Source of the DNA: Gemmatimonadaceae bacterium
GTDB taxonomy: Bacteria > Gemmatimonadota > Gemmatimonadetes > Gemmatimonadales > Gemmatimonadaceae
Reading direction: 5' to 3'
DNA: 64,000 bases
Assembly (NCBI GenBank): GCA_020851455.1
Contig: JADZCT010000041.1
Span: 1 to 64,000, forward strand
The position numbers were made by a program, and so were the translations under genes. The notes under the pieces were generated by a model that did no database searches, had not been told where the DNA came from, and was given only the letters and a program-made list of their open reading frames with translations. Below are positions 27,214-56,798 of this stretch, one piece after another. Numbering within the stretch: the stretch's first letter is position 1; each line of letters begins with the position of its first letter.

Positions 27214-28140
27214 TTGAGCGCACCGACACCTGCAGCCGGCAACACGCCCTCTCAGCGCGCGCACAAGGTAACGGTCGTGACGCTCCGCGACCTCAAGGCG
27301 CGCGGCGAGCGCGCGACGGCAGTCACGGCGTACGACTACCCGACTGCCGTCTTCGCCGACCGCGCCGGCGTGGACTGGCTGCTCGTCGGTGACTCCGCCG
27401 CGATGACCGTGCTCGGCCTCCCCAACACGCTTGGAATTGGAATGACGGAAATGCTCGTCTTCGCACGGGCCGTTGCACGGGGGGCCCGGCATTCCTTCGT
27501 GGTTGGGGACCTTCCCTTTCTCTCGTACCAGGTGTCGGACGAAGACGCTATCCGAAACGCCGGCGCGTTCATCGCTGCAGGGTGTGACGCGGTGAAGTGC
27601 GAGGGCGGACGGCGCATCGCCCAGCGCGTTCGCGCGATGTCCGACGCAGGCATCGCCGTCATGGGCCACATCGGCCTCACGCCGCAGGCCATCGGCCAGC
27701 TCGGCGGGTACCGCGTGCAGGGTCGTACGCGCGCCGCCGCTGCCCTGCTGCTGGACGACGCGCGCGCTCTCCAGGACGCGGGCGCATTCTCGCTTCTCAT
27801 CGAGGCGACACCGCCCGAAGCGGCGGAGCAGATCCGCGACGACCTCGACATCCCAGTGTACGGGATCGGCGCGGGCCCGGACGTGGACGGCCAGCTCGTC
27901 ATCTCGCACGACCTGCTCGGGAATTTCGTAGGCGACGTGAAGCCCCGGTTCGTCTCGCGCCTCGCCGACGTGGACAAGGTCGTCACGACAGCATTTGCCG
28001 ACTACGCCGCGAGCGTCCGTAACCGAAAGTTCCCGGCCCCCGAACACTGGTACGCCGCACTGCCAGAGTCCAAGTCCGGCGGCACCGCGCGGCCCGCGTC
28101 AAAGCGCCCGGAACGCGCGCGAACCGTGGCGCGCGCCTGA
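27214..28140 (+). CDS. panB: 3-methyl-2-oxobutanoate hydroxymethyltransferase (ketopantoate hydroxymethyltransferase)
   Basis: 308 residues. PanB adds a hydroxymethyl group from 5,10-methylene-THF to 2-oxoisovalerate, the first committed step of pantothenate and CoA synthesis, in the cytoplasm. Family landmarks are VTAYDYPTAVFADRAGVDWL, LVGDSAAMTVLG, AGCDAVKCEGG and MGHIGLTPQAIGQLGGYRVQ. The start is TTG at 27214, 8 bases after GGAGG. Residues before about 15 and after about 290 are extra, low-complexity extensions. It heads a run with a sulfur carrier, MoeB and threonine synthase. Expression probably depends on passing two leader terminators. Confidence 0.92.
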   Translation: MSAPTPAAGNTPSQRAHKVTVVTLRDLKARGERATAVTAYDYPTAVFADRAGVDWLLVGDSAAMTVLGLPNTLGIGMTEMLVFARAVARGARHSFVVGDLPFLSYQVSDEDAIRNAGAFIAAGCDAVKCEGGRRIAQRVRAMSDAGIAVMGHIGLTPQAIGQLGGYRVQGRTRAAAALLLDDARALQDAGAFSLLIEATPPEAAEQIRDDLDIPVYGIGAGPDVDGQLVISHDLLGNFVGDVKPRFVSRLADVDKVVTTAFADYAASVRNRKFPAPEHWYAALPESKSGGTARPASKRPERARTVARA

Positions 28141-51269: not shown

Positions 51270-51974
51270 TCAGGGCGGTACGTCCGCTCCGCGCGCGATG
51301 CCCCGAAGGCGTTCCACGTCGGGTATGCGAATCCGCCCGCCCGGAACGGCCTGGATGAGTCCTCGCTTCCGGAGGGCCTTCATCGCGCGCGACACGGATT
51401 CGCGCGCGGTGCCGATCTCGATCGCAAGCTCACGCTGGGTGCGGCGAAGGCGAAGCTCCACGGGCCTTCCCGCGACCGCTCCTGCGTCGTCGGCGTAGCC
51501 GGCCAGAAGGTGCGCGAGCCGCGCGGCCACGTCGCGAAAGGCAAGCGTCTCCGTAACATGGACGAGGTGCCGAAGCCGGCGGCCGAGCCCGTGAATCACC
51601 GTGGCGGCAAAGTCGGGATTCGCGCGGACGACGGCCTCGAACTCACCGCGTGGGACAAAGACGAGCCGACCGGCCTCGATCGCCACGGCGGACGCGGGGT
51701 ACTGGCCGCCGTCGAACAGGGGCAGCTCCGCGACCGGGCTGCCTGCGCCTTCGACGTGAAGGACCTGTTCCTTTCCTTCCTGGCTCACGCGATAGATGCG
51801 GACGCGCCCCGACTGCACGATGAAGAGCCCGCGGCAAGTGTCGCCCGCAGTGAAGAGAACATGTCCAGCGCTCATGTCGCGCGCAACGCAACGCTGCGCG
51901 AGCTGTTCGAGCGCCTGCTCGTCCAGCTCGCGGAAGAGCGGAAGCGCGTGAAGGAGTTGTGCGATCTCGCCCAT
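51270..51974 (-). CDS. Crp/Fnr-family transcription regulator
   Basis: 234 residues from ATG at 51974. The N-terminal cyclic-nucleotide-type domain (about 10-125) lacks the N-terminal Cys cluster of Fnr, so it does not sense O2 by an iron-sulfur centre; NO, heme or nucleotide sensing are options. The C-terminal helix-turn-helix reads TQRELAIEIGTARESVSRAM, where the recognition helix has R-E-x-x-x-R as in E. coli CRP, which reads TGTGA half sites. Matching TGTGA-N6-TCACG sites lie in its own upstream region and before sufT/mrp. It probably controls the neighbouring nitrogen-oxide-linked genes. Confidence 0.85.
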   Translation of the reverse strand: MGEIAQLLHALPLFRELDEQALEQLAQRCVARDMSAGHVLFTAGDTCRGLFIVQSGRVRIYRVSQEGKEQVLHVEGAGSPVAELPLFDGGQYPASAVAIEAGRLVFVPRGEFEAVVRANPDFAATVIHGLGRRLRHLVHVTETLAFRDVAARLAHLLAGYADDAGAVAGRPVELRLRRTQRELAIEIGTARESVSRAMKALRKRGLIQAVPGGRIRIPDVERLRGIARGADVPP

Positions 51975-52004
51975 ACAGCACATTCTACAGTGATGCAGCA
52001 CGCT

Positions 52005-52018
52005 GTGACAATCGTCAC
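52005..52018. promoter_or_regulatory. CRP-type operator between crp and the mini-oxidase operon
   Basis: GTGACAATCGTCAC is a perfect 5-4-5 palindrome; with flanks it is TGTGA-N6-TCACG, nine of ten bases of the E. coli CRP site. It is 31 bases from the regulator's start codon and 84 bases from the start of the divergent gene at 52103, so it could control both. Confidence 0.65.
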
Positions 52019-52102
52019 GCAATGGTTGGCATGGGCCTGCGACCTTCACGGCTCGCCCGGCATTGCCACAACCCTCCCTTCGCCGGTGCGCACCGAGGAT
52101 TG

Positions 52103-52540
52103 ATGGACTGGTACGCGCGCGCCTTCATCAAGGCGAGCCTCACATGGTTTTCGCTTGGCGTGGCGCTGGGCTTGGCGATGGCCGCGCATCCCGCATGGGT
52201 TATCTACCGGCCGGCGCACGCGCACATGAACGTGCTTGGCTTCGTGACGATGATGATCTACGGTATCGCGTACCACGTGATTCCCCGGTTCACCGGGAGC
52301 AGAGTTCACAGCCCGCGACTTGCGACGGTGCAATGGTGGGTCGCGAACGTGGGGCTCGCGCTCCTGGTCGTCGGGTTCCTGGCGCGCCCGCATTCCGCGG
52401 CGATCGGGGTGCACCTGCTGATTGTCGGCGGCACCGTATCGGCAGCGGCGGCGTACATGTTCGTGTACAACATCTGGCGCACGATCGGCACCGAGCGTCC
52501 GCGTGCGAGCGCGGCGGCCGCGCGGCCGCGCGGCCCGTAG
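52103..52540 (+). CDS. Mini heme-copper-oxidase-I-like membrane protein A
   Basis: 145 residues with four membrane helices. YRPAHAHMNVLGFVTMMIYG, then AYHVIPRFTG, matches a single helix pair of cytochrome oxidase subunit I/NorB-type proteins (the HxH in a RPAHAHxNxLGF context). It is far too short to be an oxidase. Small proteins of this kind accompany denitrification and NO-related genes in several phyla; heme binding by the His residues is a reasonable guess. It heads an operon with a similar 151-residue protein and has a CRP-type operator upstream. Confidence 0.65.
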   Translation: MDWYARAFIKASLTWFSLGVALGLAMAAHPAWVIYRPAHAHMNVLGFVTMMIYGIAYHVIPRFTGSRVHSPRLATVQWWVANVGLALLVVGFLARPHSAAIGVHLLIVGGTVSAAAAYMFVYNIWRTIGTERPRASAAAARPRGP

Positions 52541-52552
52541 GCGGGTTAGACC

Positions 52553-53008
52553 GTGCATTCGCTGGTCCGCCGCTTCATCAAGACGGCAATTGTGTTCCTC
52601 TTCGTTGGTCTCGCGCTTGGCGCATGGATGCTCGTGCGCCGCGAGATCTACGACGTTCGCCCGTCAACGTACGAGACCAGCGCGCACACGCACGCGATCC
52701 TCGTCGGTTTCGTGATGATGATGATCCTCGGCGTCGCGGTCTGGATGTTTCCCCGTGCGCAGAAGGACGACGCACGCTACAAGCCGGGGTGGGTGCGGGT
52801 GGCGTGGTGGCTCATCACGACTGGTACGGCGGTGCGCGTGGCGGGCGAGATGGCGCGCCTGAAGGTGGCCTCCGGTGCGCTGCGCTGGATCATCGTCGCT
52901 AGCGGCATCGCGCAGGTTCTTGGCATCATGACGTTCTTCATCGCGATGTGGCCACGGATCCGCGCTGCGGGGAGCGCAACGCGCGAGGCACGGGGCGAAC
53001 GCTTCTAG
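52553..53008 (+). CDS. Mini heme-copper-oxidase-I-like membrane protein B
   Basis: 151 residues from GTG, four membrane helices. It has the same layout as the preceding protein: a first helix beginning RRFIKTAIVFLFVGLALGAW and a HxH-type helix SAHTHAILVGFVMMMILGVA. The two are old paralogues and probably form a heterodimer. The stop codon overlaps that of the convergent DUF2249 gene (shared CTAG). Function unknown. Confidence 0.65.
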   Translation: MHSLVRRFIKTAIVFLFVGLALGAWMLVRREIYDVRPSTYETSAHTHAILVGFVMMMILGVAVWMFPRAQKDDARYKPGWVRVAWWLITTGTAVRVAGEMARLKVASGALRWIIVASGIAQVLGIMTFFIAMWPRIRAAGSATREARGERF

Positions 53009-53937
53009 GAGCGCTGGATCCGGACGTGCACCTCGTCCGCGGCAACCCTGTCCACAGTGTATGAGAACCCGCGCTGATCCAGTATTGGCAGCAGGAACTC
53101 CGGGACACGCACGTTGACCTGAAGCAGCACCTGGCCGGCCTCGAGGTTCTCGGCCGCCTCGAGCGTGTGAACCATGGGCTCCGGCGGCTCCATTTCGCGC
53201 ACGTCCAGCACGACGTCCACGCCGTATGCGGCCGCCGACCCCGGGGCAGCCGGAGCACGCACTGCGCCGGGCTGCTGCGCGGAGCCAGCGGTCGCGGCTG
53301 CTGCTGGCCGGGCAGCGACTCCTTCCGGGTTGCGACGGAACCACACGGACCAGTCGTCCGGGTTATCCCGCCGCGTATGATGCTCGAACCCCCGCTTGCC
53401 AAGCACGGCGTAGAGCGGCGCCGGCTCGAATGGGGCGCGCAGGCGAAGGACTTCGTCCGGCTTCAGTTTGGCGACGGTCGCCATGATGGTATCAAATGGC
53501 TCCTTGCCCGCGGCGAGGGCCGGACGGACGTCGAGATCCACGACGCGCTCATGTATCCACGCAGGCTCGGCGGCGCCAGCGGATGCGGTCGCGTCAGGCG
53601 CGCCCGGGCTCCGTGAGTCGCTGCTCGCGGATTGCACGACGGGCGCGTCGCCAGATGGCGCGGCTGTCGCCGCCGGCGATGCGACGCCCAGCGCGCTGTT
53701 CAGCGCGTCGAGGAGACTCTGCAACGGCACACCCGCCAGCTGCGCTGCCTGCTGGACCGTAGCGAGACGCGCCATGACCTTCCGGATTCCGGCGTTGCGC
53801 AGCTTGGTGAAGTGCTGAGACACTCCCACGAACACCTCGACCAGCCTTTCATCCCGTGCAAGCACGTCTGACACCCGGTCGGTGGGCAACACCGGCCCTT
53901 CCTTCCTGGCTCCGCGCGTCATGCGATTGTCCCCCAT
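53005..53937 (-). CDS. DUF1858-DUF2249 protein, two DUF2249 units
   Basis: 310 residues. An N-terminal DUF1858-like helical domain (residues about 18-85: DRVSDVLARDERLVEVFVGV, then RNAGIRKVMARLATVQQAAQ) is followed by a Pro/Ala-rich linker and two TusA-like DUF2249 domains: VVDLDVRPALAAGKEPFDTI and, at the end, VVLDVREMEPPEPMVHTLEA. Such proteins occur beside nitrate/NO respiration and hemerythrin genes and may move sulfur or bind a metal, which is not established. It is last in a minus-strand operon with Mrp and a 12-TM protein. Confidence 0.8.
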   Translation of the reverse strand: MGDNRMTRGARKEGPVLPTDRVSDVLARDERLVEVFVGVSQHFTKLRNAGIRKVMARLATVQQAAQLAGVPLQSLLDALNSALGVASPAATAAPSGDAPVVQSASSDSRSPGAPDATASAGAAEPAWIHERVVDLDVRPALAAGKEPFDTIMATVAKLKPDEVLRLRAPFEPAPLYAVLGKRGFEHHTRRDNPDDWSVWFRRNPEGVAARPAAAATAGSAQQPGAVRAPAAPGSAAAYGVDVVLDVREMEPPEPMVHTLEAAENLEAGQVLLQVNVRVPEFLLPILDQRGFSYTVDRVAADEVHVRIQRS

Positions 53938-55271
53938 GCGGCGTGCCGCAGTTGAAGCATGAAGTTGACCGTCGCAGCGAAGAAGAGCGCGGCGCCGGCG
54001 TACGCAACGAGTGGCTGAACCATGATGACACCCAGGTCGAGCAGAGCCACGCCTCCCAGGGCAAGCGCAAGCCCCACGCGTCCCGCGCGCGGCGAAGTGA
54101 GTTGCGCAACCACCGGAACGCGCTCACGCCCCACGCGGCCGCGGTACCGTGCCACCCACGCGAGGAACGGTACGACCTTGTATTGCAGTCCCATCACCAT
54201 CACCCCTATGGCGCCCAGCAGGCCCGTGAGAATGTAGATCGTGGCCAGCCCACGATGATCCGCTCCGCGGTGCAGCACGAATGGCGCGAGCAGTCCGGCG
54301 ATGACGAACACGACCAGCGCCGCGCGCACGTGCAGCAACCCCGCGTCGAGCCCCGGCCTCTTGCGCGCGCGCATGTTGCGCGCGCCCTGAACGACGAACG
54401 CCGCCAGTCCGGCCTCGATCAGCACGAGCCCGGCCCACGCAACGGATGGCGGGGCTGCAGTCAGCCCCCACGCCAGGATGGCAAGGCCGGACGCCAGGAA
54501 CGCTACGCTGGCGGCGTTCAGCCGCGGGCTGACGGTATGCGACAGCAGGAACATCGGGAGCAGGCGCCTCGACACGCCGGCAATCATGATCAGCACCCAG
54601 CCGATGATCGCGACGTGGAGGTGAATGGCAACCGTCGTCACACGGCCGCCACCGAGAAACCCGGTGTGAATGTTGTGGACCAGGACGATGCCGAGGATAA
54701 ACGTCGTGCAGAGGTACGTCATCGAGACCGCAACGGAATACCAGACGACGTCACGAATGGCCGCGCTCTTCAGCGACATCGCGATGTTCACGATTGCGCA
54801 CGCAAGACCGATGCCTATCCCCGTGAGCCCGGCGTGGTGAAGCACCACCGACTGCGTCATCACGCCCGGCGCGAACACAGCCACGCCGGGCACGAAGAAC
54901 CAGAAGCCGACATGCCCGAGCCGCTCGGAGCGCACCGACGCGCCGAGCGCGACCTGGATCAGCTGGTACAGCGCGCCAAAGATCGTGGTCGTGAGCCAGC
55001 CCAGCGTAAAGAGATGCGTTACTCCGGCAACATGCGGCGACTGGTACAGGCCGCGCGCCAGTTCCGGCGCAATCCAGACGAGGCCGGCTCCTCCCGCAAC
55101 GAGGAATACGATACCAGCCACGAAGTGCTCGGCCGGCAACCGGAGCGAAGCGCCGCCTTGCGGCGCCATGCCGCCCGGCGTGACCATCCCTCCAGGGACC
55201 GGCCCCGCTCCCGCCGGAGCTCCGCCACGGGGCGCCGCACCGCCGCCAGGCGCCACGCTGCCACCGGTCAC
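53919..55271 (-). CDS. 12-TM heme-copper-oxidase/NnrS-like membrane protein
   Basis: 450 residues. After a Gly/Pro/Ala-rich first 45 residues come about twelve membrane helices. Two His-containing stretches, VTHLFTLGWLTTTIFGALYQ and HLHVAIIGWVLIMIAGVSRR, resemble the heme-ligand helices of oxidase subunit I and NnrS proteins. It lacks the full set of ligands of a proton-pumping oxidase, so a heme-binding or NO-related accessory role is more likely. The start overlaps the mrp stop by ATGA, and its end overlaps the DUF2249 gene by 19 bases. Confidence 0.65.
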   Translation of the reverse strand: MTGGSVAPGGGAAPRGGAPAGAGPVPGGMVTPGGMAPQGGASLRLPAEHFVAGIVFLVAGGAGLVWIAPELARGLYQSPHVAGVTHLFTLGWLTTTIFGALYQLIQVALGASVRSERLGHVGFWFFVPGVAVFAPGVMTQSVVLHHAGLTGIGIGLACAIVNIAMSLKSAAIRDVVWYSVAVSMTYLCTTFILGIVLVHNIHTGFLGGGRVTTVAIHLHVAIIGWVLIMIAGVSRRLLPMFLLSHTVSPRLNAASVAFLASGLAILAWGLTAAPPSVAWAGLVLIEAGLAAFVVQGARNMRARKRPGLDAGLLHVRAALVVFVIAGLLAPFVLHRGADHRGLATIYILTGLLGAIGVMVMGLQYKVVPFLAWVARYRGRVGRERVPVVAQLTSPRAGRVGLALALGGVALLDLGVIMVQPLVAYAGAALFFAATVNFMLQLRHAAWGTIA

Positions 55272-56329
55272 GGCAACGCCTCGATCACTGCCTTGGCGAT
55301 CGCGCGGAAACTGGCCGCGGCCTCGCTCTCAGGACGGGCAAGCACGGTCGGCGTTCCGGTATCGCCTTCGGCAATCATACGCGCGTCGAATGAAACGGCG
55401 CCGAGGTACTTCGTTTCGAGTTTCCGGGCGACGGCCTCGCCCGCGCCGTGGCCGTAGACGCCAGTCATGTTCTCGATCACGCCGACCAGGGGCACGTCGA
55501 GCTGGCGGTACATTCTGCCCGCCTTCTGGGCTTCGACGCCCGCCAGCCACTGCGGTTGCGTAACGACAATTCCACCCGAAAGGTGCACTGCCTGCGCAAG
55601 CGAAAGCGGCGTATCACCCGTGCCTGGCGGCAAGTCAACTATGAGCATGTCCAGGTCCGGCCAGAGGACGCCGCGCGAGAACTGCGTAACGGCCTTCGAC
55701 ACCATCGGCCCGCGCCAGATCGCGGGCGATTCGTCGCCGAGGAAGAAGCCGAAACTGATCAGCGGAACGCCATGCGCCTCGACCGGGACAATGTTCTGCT
55801 CGGGTGTCATGGAAACACGCTTGTTCCCGTCTGTGACCCCCAGGAGGATGGGCAAGCTGGGCCCGTATATGTCGGCGTCGAGGAGGCCGACGCGCATGCC
55901 CTCGGCGCGCAGCGCGAACGCAAGGTTGGCAGCGACCGTGCTCTTGCCCACCCCGCCCTTCCCTGCCCCGACCGCGATGACGTGGCGTACACGCCCAAGC
56001 TTCACCTGCTCAGACCAAGGGTCGGGTGCGGCCTTTGGCACCTTGGGATGCTGCTTGATGCTCGGCGGACCTATCTCGACCTCGACGTGGGTTCCGCCCG
56101 CCCCCTGCACGGCTGCCGTTACTGCGTCCCTGATCCTCGGGCCGATAGCCGGATCCGTGGTGCGCAACCCGAGATGGACCTTTACCTGCGTACCACACAA
56201 GGAGATGTGCTCCACCATGCCGAACGCGACGATATCGCGAGACATTCCAGGATACTTGACTGTTGCCAGCGCGGTACGGACGGCACTTTCATCCAGTATC
56301 TGCTCGTTGTCCAACGGAAGCTGCGTCAT
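55268..56329 (-). CDS. mrp: Mrp/ApbC-type iron-sulfur cluster carrier ATPase
   Basis: 353 residues. An N-terminal DUF59 domain (MIP18-like, about 10-100) precedes the P-loop ATPase with the deviant Walker A HVIAVGAGKGGVGKSTVAAN and DMLIVDLPPGTGDTPLSLAQ. It moves Fe-S clusters onto target proteins. The CxxC of some Mrp proteins is not seen. It heads an operon with two membrane/accessory proteins and faces a SufT-like gene across a region with two CRP-type operators. Its product may mature the Fe-S-rich Nar and formate dehydrogenase enzymes. Confidence 0.9.
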   Translation of the reverse strand: MTQLPLDNEQILDESAVRTALATVKYPGMSRDIVAFGMVEHISLCGTQVKVHLGLRTTDPAIGPRIRDAVTAAVQGAGGTHVEVEIGPPSIKQHPKVPKAAPDPWSEQVKLGRVRHVIAVGAGKGGVGKSTVAANLAFALRAEGMRVGLLDADIYGPSLPILLGVTDGNKRVSMTPEQNIVPVEAHGVPLISFGFFLGDESPAIWRGPMVSKAVTQFSRGVLWPDLDMLIVDLPPGTGDTPLSLAQAVHLSGGIVVTQPQWLAGVEAQKAGRMYRQLDVPLVGVIENMTGVYGHGAGEAVARKLETKYLGAVSFDARMIAEGDTGTPTVLARPESEAAASFRAIAKAVIEALP

Positions 56330-56394
56330 GCGGAAGCGGATGCCTGAGGGGGGTATGGATGTTCAGAACCTGAGCCGCCAGCGGAGACGGGTGC

Positions 56395-56408
56395 GTGACG
56401 ATTGTCGC
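56395..56408. promoter_or_regulatory. CRP-type operator 1 between mrp and sufT
   Basis: GTGACGATTGTCGC is the 5-4-5 palindrome with one mismatch (GTCGC). Its centre is 25 bp from that of the next site, close to the 21-31 bp spacings seen for paired CRP-family sites on the same DNA face. Confidence 0.5.
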
Positions 56409-56419
56409 ATACATTCACT

Positions 56420-56433
56420 GTGACATGCGTCAC
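56420..56433. promoter_or_regulatory. CRP-type operator 2 between mrp and sufT
   Basis: GTGACATGCGTCAC is a perfect palindrome (TGTGA-N6-TCACG with flanks), identical in its arms to the site at 52005. A TAGAAT at 56461-56466 could be the -10 of the sufT promoter with no good -35, as expected if the regulator activates. Confidence 0.65.
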
Positions 56434-56501
56434 GCCCACCGTATGCGGTGGTAACAACCATAGAATATCACCGGCCTTGCAAGGCCATAGCCAACGCGGT
56501 A

Positions 56502-56798
56502 ATGCCTGAACAGGATGCACTGACCACTACAACATGGGACGCGCTGAGCACGGTCATTGACCCGGAGATCGGGCTCGATATCGTCACGCTCGGACTCGTC
56601 TACGACGTCTCGATCGCCGACGGGAGGGCCGTCGTTACGCACACGCTCACGACCCGCGGGTGCCCGATGGAAGGCATCATCACTGCAGGGATACTGGAAG
56701 CGGTCGGCGCCGTGGAGGGGATCGAGGAGGTCAGCACGAACCTCGTGTGGGATCCCTCGTGGCACTCGGGGATGATCGCGCCCGGCGCCTGGGGCTAG
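56502..56798 (+). CDS. SufT/DUF59 metal-sulfur cluster assembly factor
   Basis: 98 residues, a single MIP18/DUF59 domain ([40 protein letters not shown]) with the reactive Cys in RGCPM. Related to PaaD and SufT, which help assemble Fe-S clusters. It begins divergent from mrp, which has its own DUF59 domain, and ends overlapping the stop of the TehA-type channel gene (shared CTAG). The regulatory sites before it suggest co-control with mrp. Confidence 0.88.

Follow-up and report, generated by a model that had tools for sequence, protein, structure and literature searches.

Do the palindromes that bracket a small set of operons in a Gemmatimonadaceae bacterium constitute one regulon under the Crp-type regulator encoded beside them, and to which signal would such a regulator respond? 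The sites lie in a 64-kb window (the whole stretch of DNA that was analysed), which belongs to a 2.96-Mb assembly of 139 contigs.

Operators and genes of the cluster

Two perfect GTGAC-N4-GTCAC palindromes, operator 1 (GTGACAATCGTCAC, 52005-52018) and operator 3 (GTGACATGCGTCAC, 56420-56433), are accompanied by a copy with a single mismatch, operator 2 (GTGACGATTGTCGC, 56395-56408); none of them is assigned to a strand. The preliminary description had placed palindromes at these three positions and nowhere else in the window: the positions were confirmed, and the exclusivity holds for perfect copies only, as further one-mismatch copies of the 14-mer were found at 27313 and 28468. At two mismatches the bare 14-mer is not rare but occurs at chance level (31 in the window vs 38.5 in shuffles), so that it is the perfect and extended forms on which the argument is built. 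Over the whole genome, GTGAC-N4-GTCAC has nine perfect places (vs one for the reversed control pattern), and the genome scan that had been called for showed the perfect extended motif (TGTGAC-N4-GTCACR) to be rare, with three places, two of them in this cluster. The operator followed by a correctly spaced -10 element was found perfect in exactly two places, both in this cluster, whose third promoter matches the combined pattern at one mismatch. A scan of the window with a position weight matrix (PWM, built from 50 sites, the window's own three among them) returned exactly the three target promoters as top results, operator 1 having the highest score (35.3). Elsewhere, a near-identical operator was observed between the genes of a Crp paralogue and a metallo-beta-lactamase-fold protein, both in the source genome (C76:34290-34305; L113 4291-4306) and in a relative (G288, L273 4923-4936). 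A perfect 24-bp palindrome (CTTACGTGACGCGCGTCACGTAAG; L007 1501-1514, own genome C92:99124) that precedes a SURF1-like gene seems to be a different operator.

Gene calls came from a simple script. Operator 1 lies between the divergently transcribed regulator gene (51270-51974, minus strand, 234 aa) and two paralogous genes for small membrane proteins on the plus strand, COXa (52103-52540, 145 aa; a COX1-family fragment, Pfam COX1 1.1e-11) and COXb (52553-53008, 151 aa), which share an H-x-H that is invariant in the alignment. The opposing operon, on the minus strand, encodes an ApbC/Mrp-type iron-sulfur carrier P-loop NTPase (55268-56329; Pfam ParA/NUBPL 2.4e-77, NCBIfam ApbC being the best match but below its cut-off), an unclassified large membrane protein (53919-55187, or from a GTG start at 55271) and a 305-aa DUF1858-DUF2249-TusA-like protein (53005-53922; Pfam DUF2249 7e-35). 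The two operons converge at a common CTAG (53005-53008) that holds the TAG stop of COXb, as the preliminary description had proposed. Outside the second pair of sites, a 98-aa MIP18/DUF59 (FeS_assembly_P) protein (56502-56798, plus strand; Pfam 1.4e-16) is encoded, adjoined by genes for a SLAC1/Tdt transporter, NarK and nitrate reductase. The large membrane protein (53919-55271), a regulon member that recurs in relatives, carries invariant H58, H189 and H191; neither it nor its orthologues received a Pfam or NCBIfam assignment, though the latter weakly resemble COX1. An identity as NnrS was dropped, since no match to that family was obtained.

Beyond the cluster, the source organism carries a COX2-COX1-SCO1-membrane protein operon (C120, L112 2164-5382), which has a near-consensus site (L112 5514-5527, PWM 21.1) 132 bp upstream. 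Its COX1 reads FGHTIVN, with Asn in the place of the catalytic Tyr that oxygen reductases have at this position, and we consider the operon, by its sequence, NO-reductase-like. The gene set resembles that of sNOR, for which a role in NO reduction is itself debated (PMC6967387). In flanks of about 1.5 kb around orthologues of the operon, no operator was found, and as a target it therefore rests on one genome. The PWM scan found no site in the upstream region of the neighbouring nitrate-reductase (nar) operon, narG promoter included, nor at the organism's own nosZ promoter, so that control of denitrification by the regulon is partial in this organism.

Promoter geometry and direction of control

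The outstanding conserved bases downstream of the operator are a G at 20, an A at 23 and a T at 27 nt. The latter two, corresponding to A(-11) and T(-7) of a sigma-70-type -10 element, occurred together at this one offset in 50 of the 81 oriented sites, whereas other offsets averaged 2.3 and reached 8 at most; the sites had been chosen independently of these bases, though nominal p-values come out too small because the genomes are related to one another. The fixed distance of the -10 element places the operator centre at -41.5 (transcription starts being predicted from sequence), where Crp/Fnr proteins sit when they activate class II promoters. All three target promoters of the window carry both bases: GACCTT with an extended TG for COXa-COXb (52041-52046, plus strand, operator 1), CAGGTT for the ApbC operon (56367-56372, minus strand, operator 2, PWM 25.8) and AACCAT for the MIP18 gene (56456-56461, plus strand, operator 3, PWM 25.9), the operator being centred at -41.5 in each. 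In 10 of 94 oriented pairs, exactly 35 nt separate the end of the operator from the start codon; given the geometry described above, transcripts from these promoters are predicted to be leaderless.

The promoter of the regulator gene is arranged differently. Its -10-like TAGAAT (51982-51987, minus strand) lies 7 nt before the ATG (predicted leaderless) and 17 nt from the operator, i.e. about 5 bp closer than in the target promoters; the operator is centred near -37 and overlaps the -35 region. The autoregulation put forward in the preliminary description thus stands in outline, in that a site faces the regulator gene, and the closer -10 indicates that its direction is probably repression.

We reason that the adjacent regulator would bind the three palindromes as a dimer at -41.5 and, once bound, activate the class II promoters of the COXa-COXb, ApbC/membrane protein/DUF2249 and MIP18 transcripts, while at operator 1 it would cover the -35 region of its own promoter and probably repress it, which would render the system self-limiting. 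That the palindromes are operators of this regulator, with class II activation of three transcripts and autorepression, we hold to be probable.

The regulator and its distribution

Two domains place the regulator in the Crp/Fnr superfamily, a cNMP-binding fold (PF00027, 1e-22) and a Crp-type winged helix-turn-helix (HTH_Crp_2, PF13545, 3e-17); its AlphaFold model (mean pLDDT 88) gave Foldseek matches in line with this membership. The recognition helix reads T-A-R-E-S-V-S-R, and R191, E192, V194 and R196 are invariant in an alignment of 18 homologues, which bears out the CRP-type R-E-x-x-x-R noted earlier. By the R180/E181 rule, which ties recognition-helix residues to a G3-type half site (PMC1274295), such a helix fits the operator.

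Close orthologues (about 55-64% identity) were recovered from 13 other sampled genomes of two families, and distant ones from further families. At the loci of these orthologues, the motif again separates the regulator gene from members of the same gene families. Motif, regulator and target genes co-occur in most of the sampled regulator-bearing Gemmatimonadota (mostly metagenome assemblies), and in several families of the class orthologous genes have the motif before them. In a de novo scan of 11,264 palindromes (all 5-bp half sites, gaps of 0-10) upstream of the orthologous regulator at 21 loci (a second collection, drawn in part from the same organisms as the first), GTGAC-N4-GTCAC ranked first with 15 of the 21 loci; the next unrelated motif reached seven, and dinucleotide shuffles averaged 0.29 loci, with never more than two. 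Homologues at 38-44% identity, mostly from Acidobacteriota, showed neither motif enrichment nor conserved neighbours, so that the operator specificity is confined to the close clade. Within the window's own genus, seven of the sampled genomes are devoid of the regulator, a patchiness that may reflect horizontal gain of the cluster or its repeated loss.

In many Gemmatimonadota the motif precedes the same genes, often on contigs that do not carry the regulator. A search of 295 genomes for the operator-plus-10 pattern led to such contigs: one genome (G275) has sites before its MIP18 and ApbC genes, another (G286) before ScdA_N-COXb as well as before the gene of the large membrane protein, and a third (G172) in the vicinity of ScdA_N and DsbA genes. 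This recurrence, along with phylogenetic footprinting, supports the earlier proposal of one regulon under the adjacent Crp-family regulator. In three regulator-bearing genomes of genus g28, clade II nosZ has a site before it, and nirK lies downstream of high-scoring sites in G286 and in an operon of G054 (L284, L290); nirK-like genes are present in 12 of the 14 regulator-bearing genomes, that of the window not being among them. A perfect palindrome at a nirK-cytochrome c fusion (G051/G045) was not counted, since it overlaps the predicted start, has poor -10 geometry and scores only 4.2 with the PWM; the orthologous fusion in G265 has no palindrome. The latter genome has a site before COXb beside metE, on the regulator's contig and about 24 kb away from it. 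In two genomes of one genus, an operator stands immediately ahead of metE or is divergent from it (L278 5105-5118; L120 8223-8236), and methionine synthase is possibly under the same control. In G219, a gene resembling that of nitronate monooxygenase has a perfect site before it, and a multiheme cytochrome is encoded further downstream (L121 8564-10056).

Across 295 genomes, the operator-plus-10 pattern had about 27 matches in the 14 genomes that possess a close orthologue and about 115 in the remaining 281 (hand counts), which makes it about five times more frequent per genome in the former. Bare-motif counts were discarded as a means of separating regulator-bearing from regulator-free genomes: both carry the motif, and no clean split was obtained.

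Two other accounts of the sites have to be weighed here. That they are chance matches in a GC-rich genome might be suggested by the behaviour of the two-mismatch motif in the window, yet it is refuted by conservation before orthologous genes, the fixed -10 spacing and the rarity in the genome, so that we give this account practically no weight. The other holds that the sites are bound mainly by the genome's second strong Crp paralogue (C76:34334-34540, locus L259), acting as a global regulator, with the local protein a bystander or competitor. This paralogue has a recognition helix of the same R-E-x-x-x-R type (S-R-E-T-V-S-R), and the only perfect extended motif outside the cluster lies just past its gene, upstream of the metallo-beta-lactamase-fold gene, an arrangement repeated in G288, which is without a close orthologue of the window regulator. 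Moreover, regulator-free genomes carry operator palindromes above control, as well as the operator-plus-10 pattern, which means that the motif is not exclusive to the window regulator; the paralogue, with its like helix and with a site past its gene in both genomes, may well share the operator. Against the paralogue as the main binder speak the site that close orthologues of the local regulator have in their own upstream region, the target genes they have in common, the higher frequency of matches in their genomes, and the situation in g28, where a regulator-free congener (G072) has nosZ without the site that three regulator-bearing ones possess. We therefore judge predominant control by the paralogue to be improbable and retain the adjacent regulator as the probable cognate protein.

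Signal and place among known regulators

The motif, its conservation along with regulator and targets, and the constant distance from operator to -10 element are evident from sequence; beyond this, we infer that the regulator binds the motif, activates upon binding, represses its own gene and responds to NO or a related nitrogen oxide and not to cAMP. It shares with cAMP-CRP and M. tuberculosis CRP (its best PDB sequence matches) the fold, the recognition helix and a TGTGA-type site. In contrast to these, the Arg (with Ser/Thr) that contacts the cAMP phosphate is absent from the 18 aligned homologues, all of which (18/18) have an invariant Y92-P93-A94 where M. tuberculosis CRP has its cAMP-binding Arg-Thr, and the regulon is small and specialised. 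No invariant Cys was found among the 18 homologues (the window regulator has two), whereas FNR requires four for its 4Fe-4S cluster.

In the DNR and NnrR denitrification regulons, as here, nitrogen-oxide genes (nir, nor, nos and those for NO handling) are under a protein of the Crp/Fnr type (PMC1274295). The present system differs from both in its R-E helix, which is not of the FNR type (E-x-x-S-R), and the regulator is only 26% identical to the DNR structure 3dkw. The half site of DNR is the FNR-like TTGAT, unlike the GTGAC recovered here. NnrR recognises TTGCG within the operator consensus ctTTGcgnnnncgCAAag (PMC1274295), which again differs from the GTGAC half site of the 21-locus scan and of the oriented sites. 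As to HcpR, the window sites (TGTGA-N6-TCACR) agree with the motif of its Desulfovibrio regulons (wTGTGAnnnnnnTCACAw, PMC1274295), both systems have a CRP-like palindrome, an Arg at position 180 and nitrogen-oxide-related targets, and P. gingivalis HcpR had the best TM-score (0.73, at 20% identity) among the PDB matches listed. The target sets differ, however, and hcp, the core target of HcpR, has no counterpart in the 14 regulator-bearing genomes (no PF03063 protein, control genomes being positive). HcpR further binds heme through Met68 (PMC12750200), and no ligand residue could be assigned in the window regulator.

The recurrent targets (iron-sulfur repair/assembly proteins, ScdA_N/RIC-like proteins, nirK and nosZ) resemble NO-responsive regulons, of which nir, nos and dnrN-type genes are typical (PMC1274295). 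Together with the near-consensus site at the operon of the Tyr-less COX1, this resemblance makes NO the favoured signal, somewhat ahead of an even chance; judged only from targets and neighbours, it would be the likeliest one. A regulator that is real but senses oxygen, redox state or nitrate/nitrite would accord with the nitrate reductase next door, with the sites that precede aa3-type oxidase genes in some relatives, and with the failure to identify a heme ligand. The same targets and the same Tyr-less operon argue against such a signal, and we regard it as rather unlikely, NO being preferred.

The reduction of N2O by soil Gemmatimonadota, which have clade II nosZ, is well recognised, but in the literature searched we found no description of how these bacteria regulate nitrogen-oxide genes. 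As read from the genomes, what is encoded here is a real, previously unreported, lineage-specific regulon of a familiar type. A broader reading, which we offer tentatively and as one piece, gives Gemmatimonadota a class of NO-responsive Crp-type regulator of their own. This regulator would drive a module of iron-sulfur repair proteins together with COX1-like membrane proteins that bear histidines and are of two unclassified kinds, the H-x-H mini-proteins being one and the large membrane protein the other. Many of its promoters would lack a leader, the activator being fixed 41.5 nt ahead of the start codon, and in one lineage the clade II N2O reductase would be under its direct control. To the preliminary description the present analysis adds phylum-wide conservation, the geometry and direction of the promoters, a wider list of targets and the caveat of the paralogue. 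The motif supplies a target list and a promoter architecture; in some lineages it would put iron-sulfur repair under the same switch as nosZ and nirK, and it singles out the COX1-like membrane proteins, so far unclassified, as probably belonging to NO handling.
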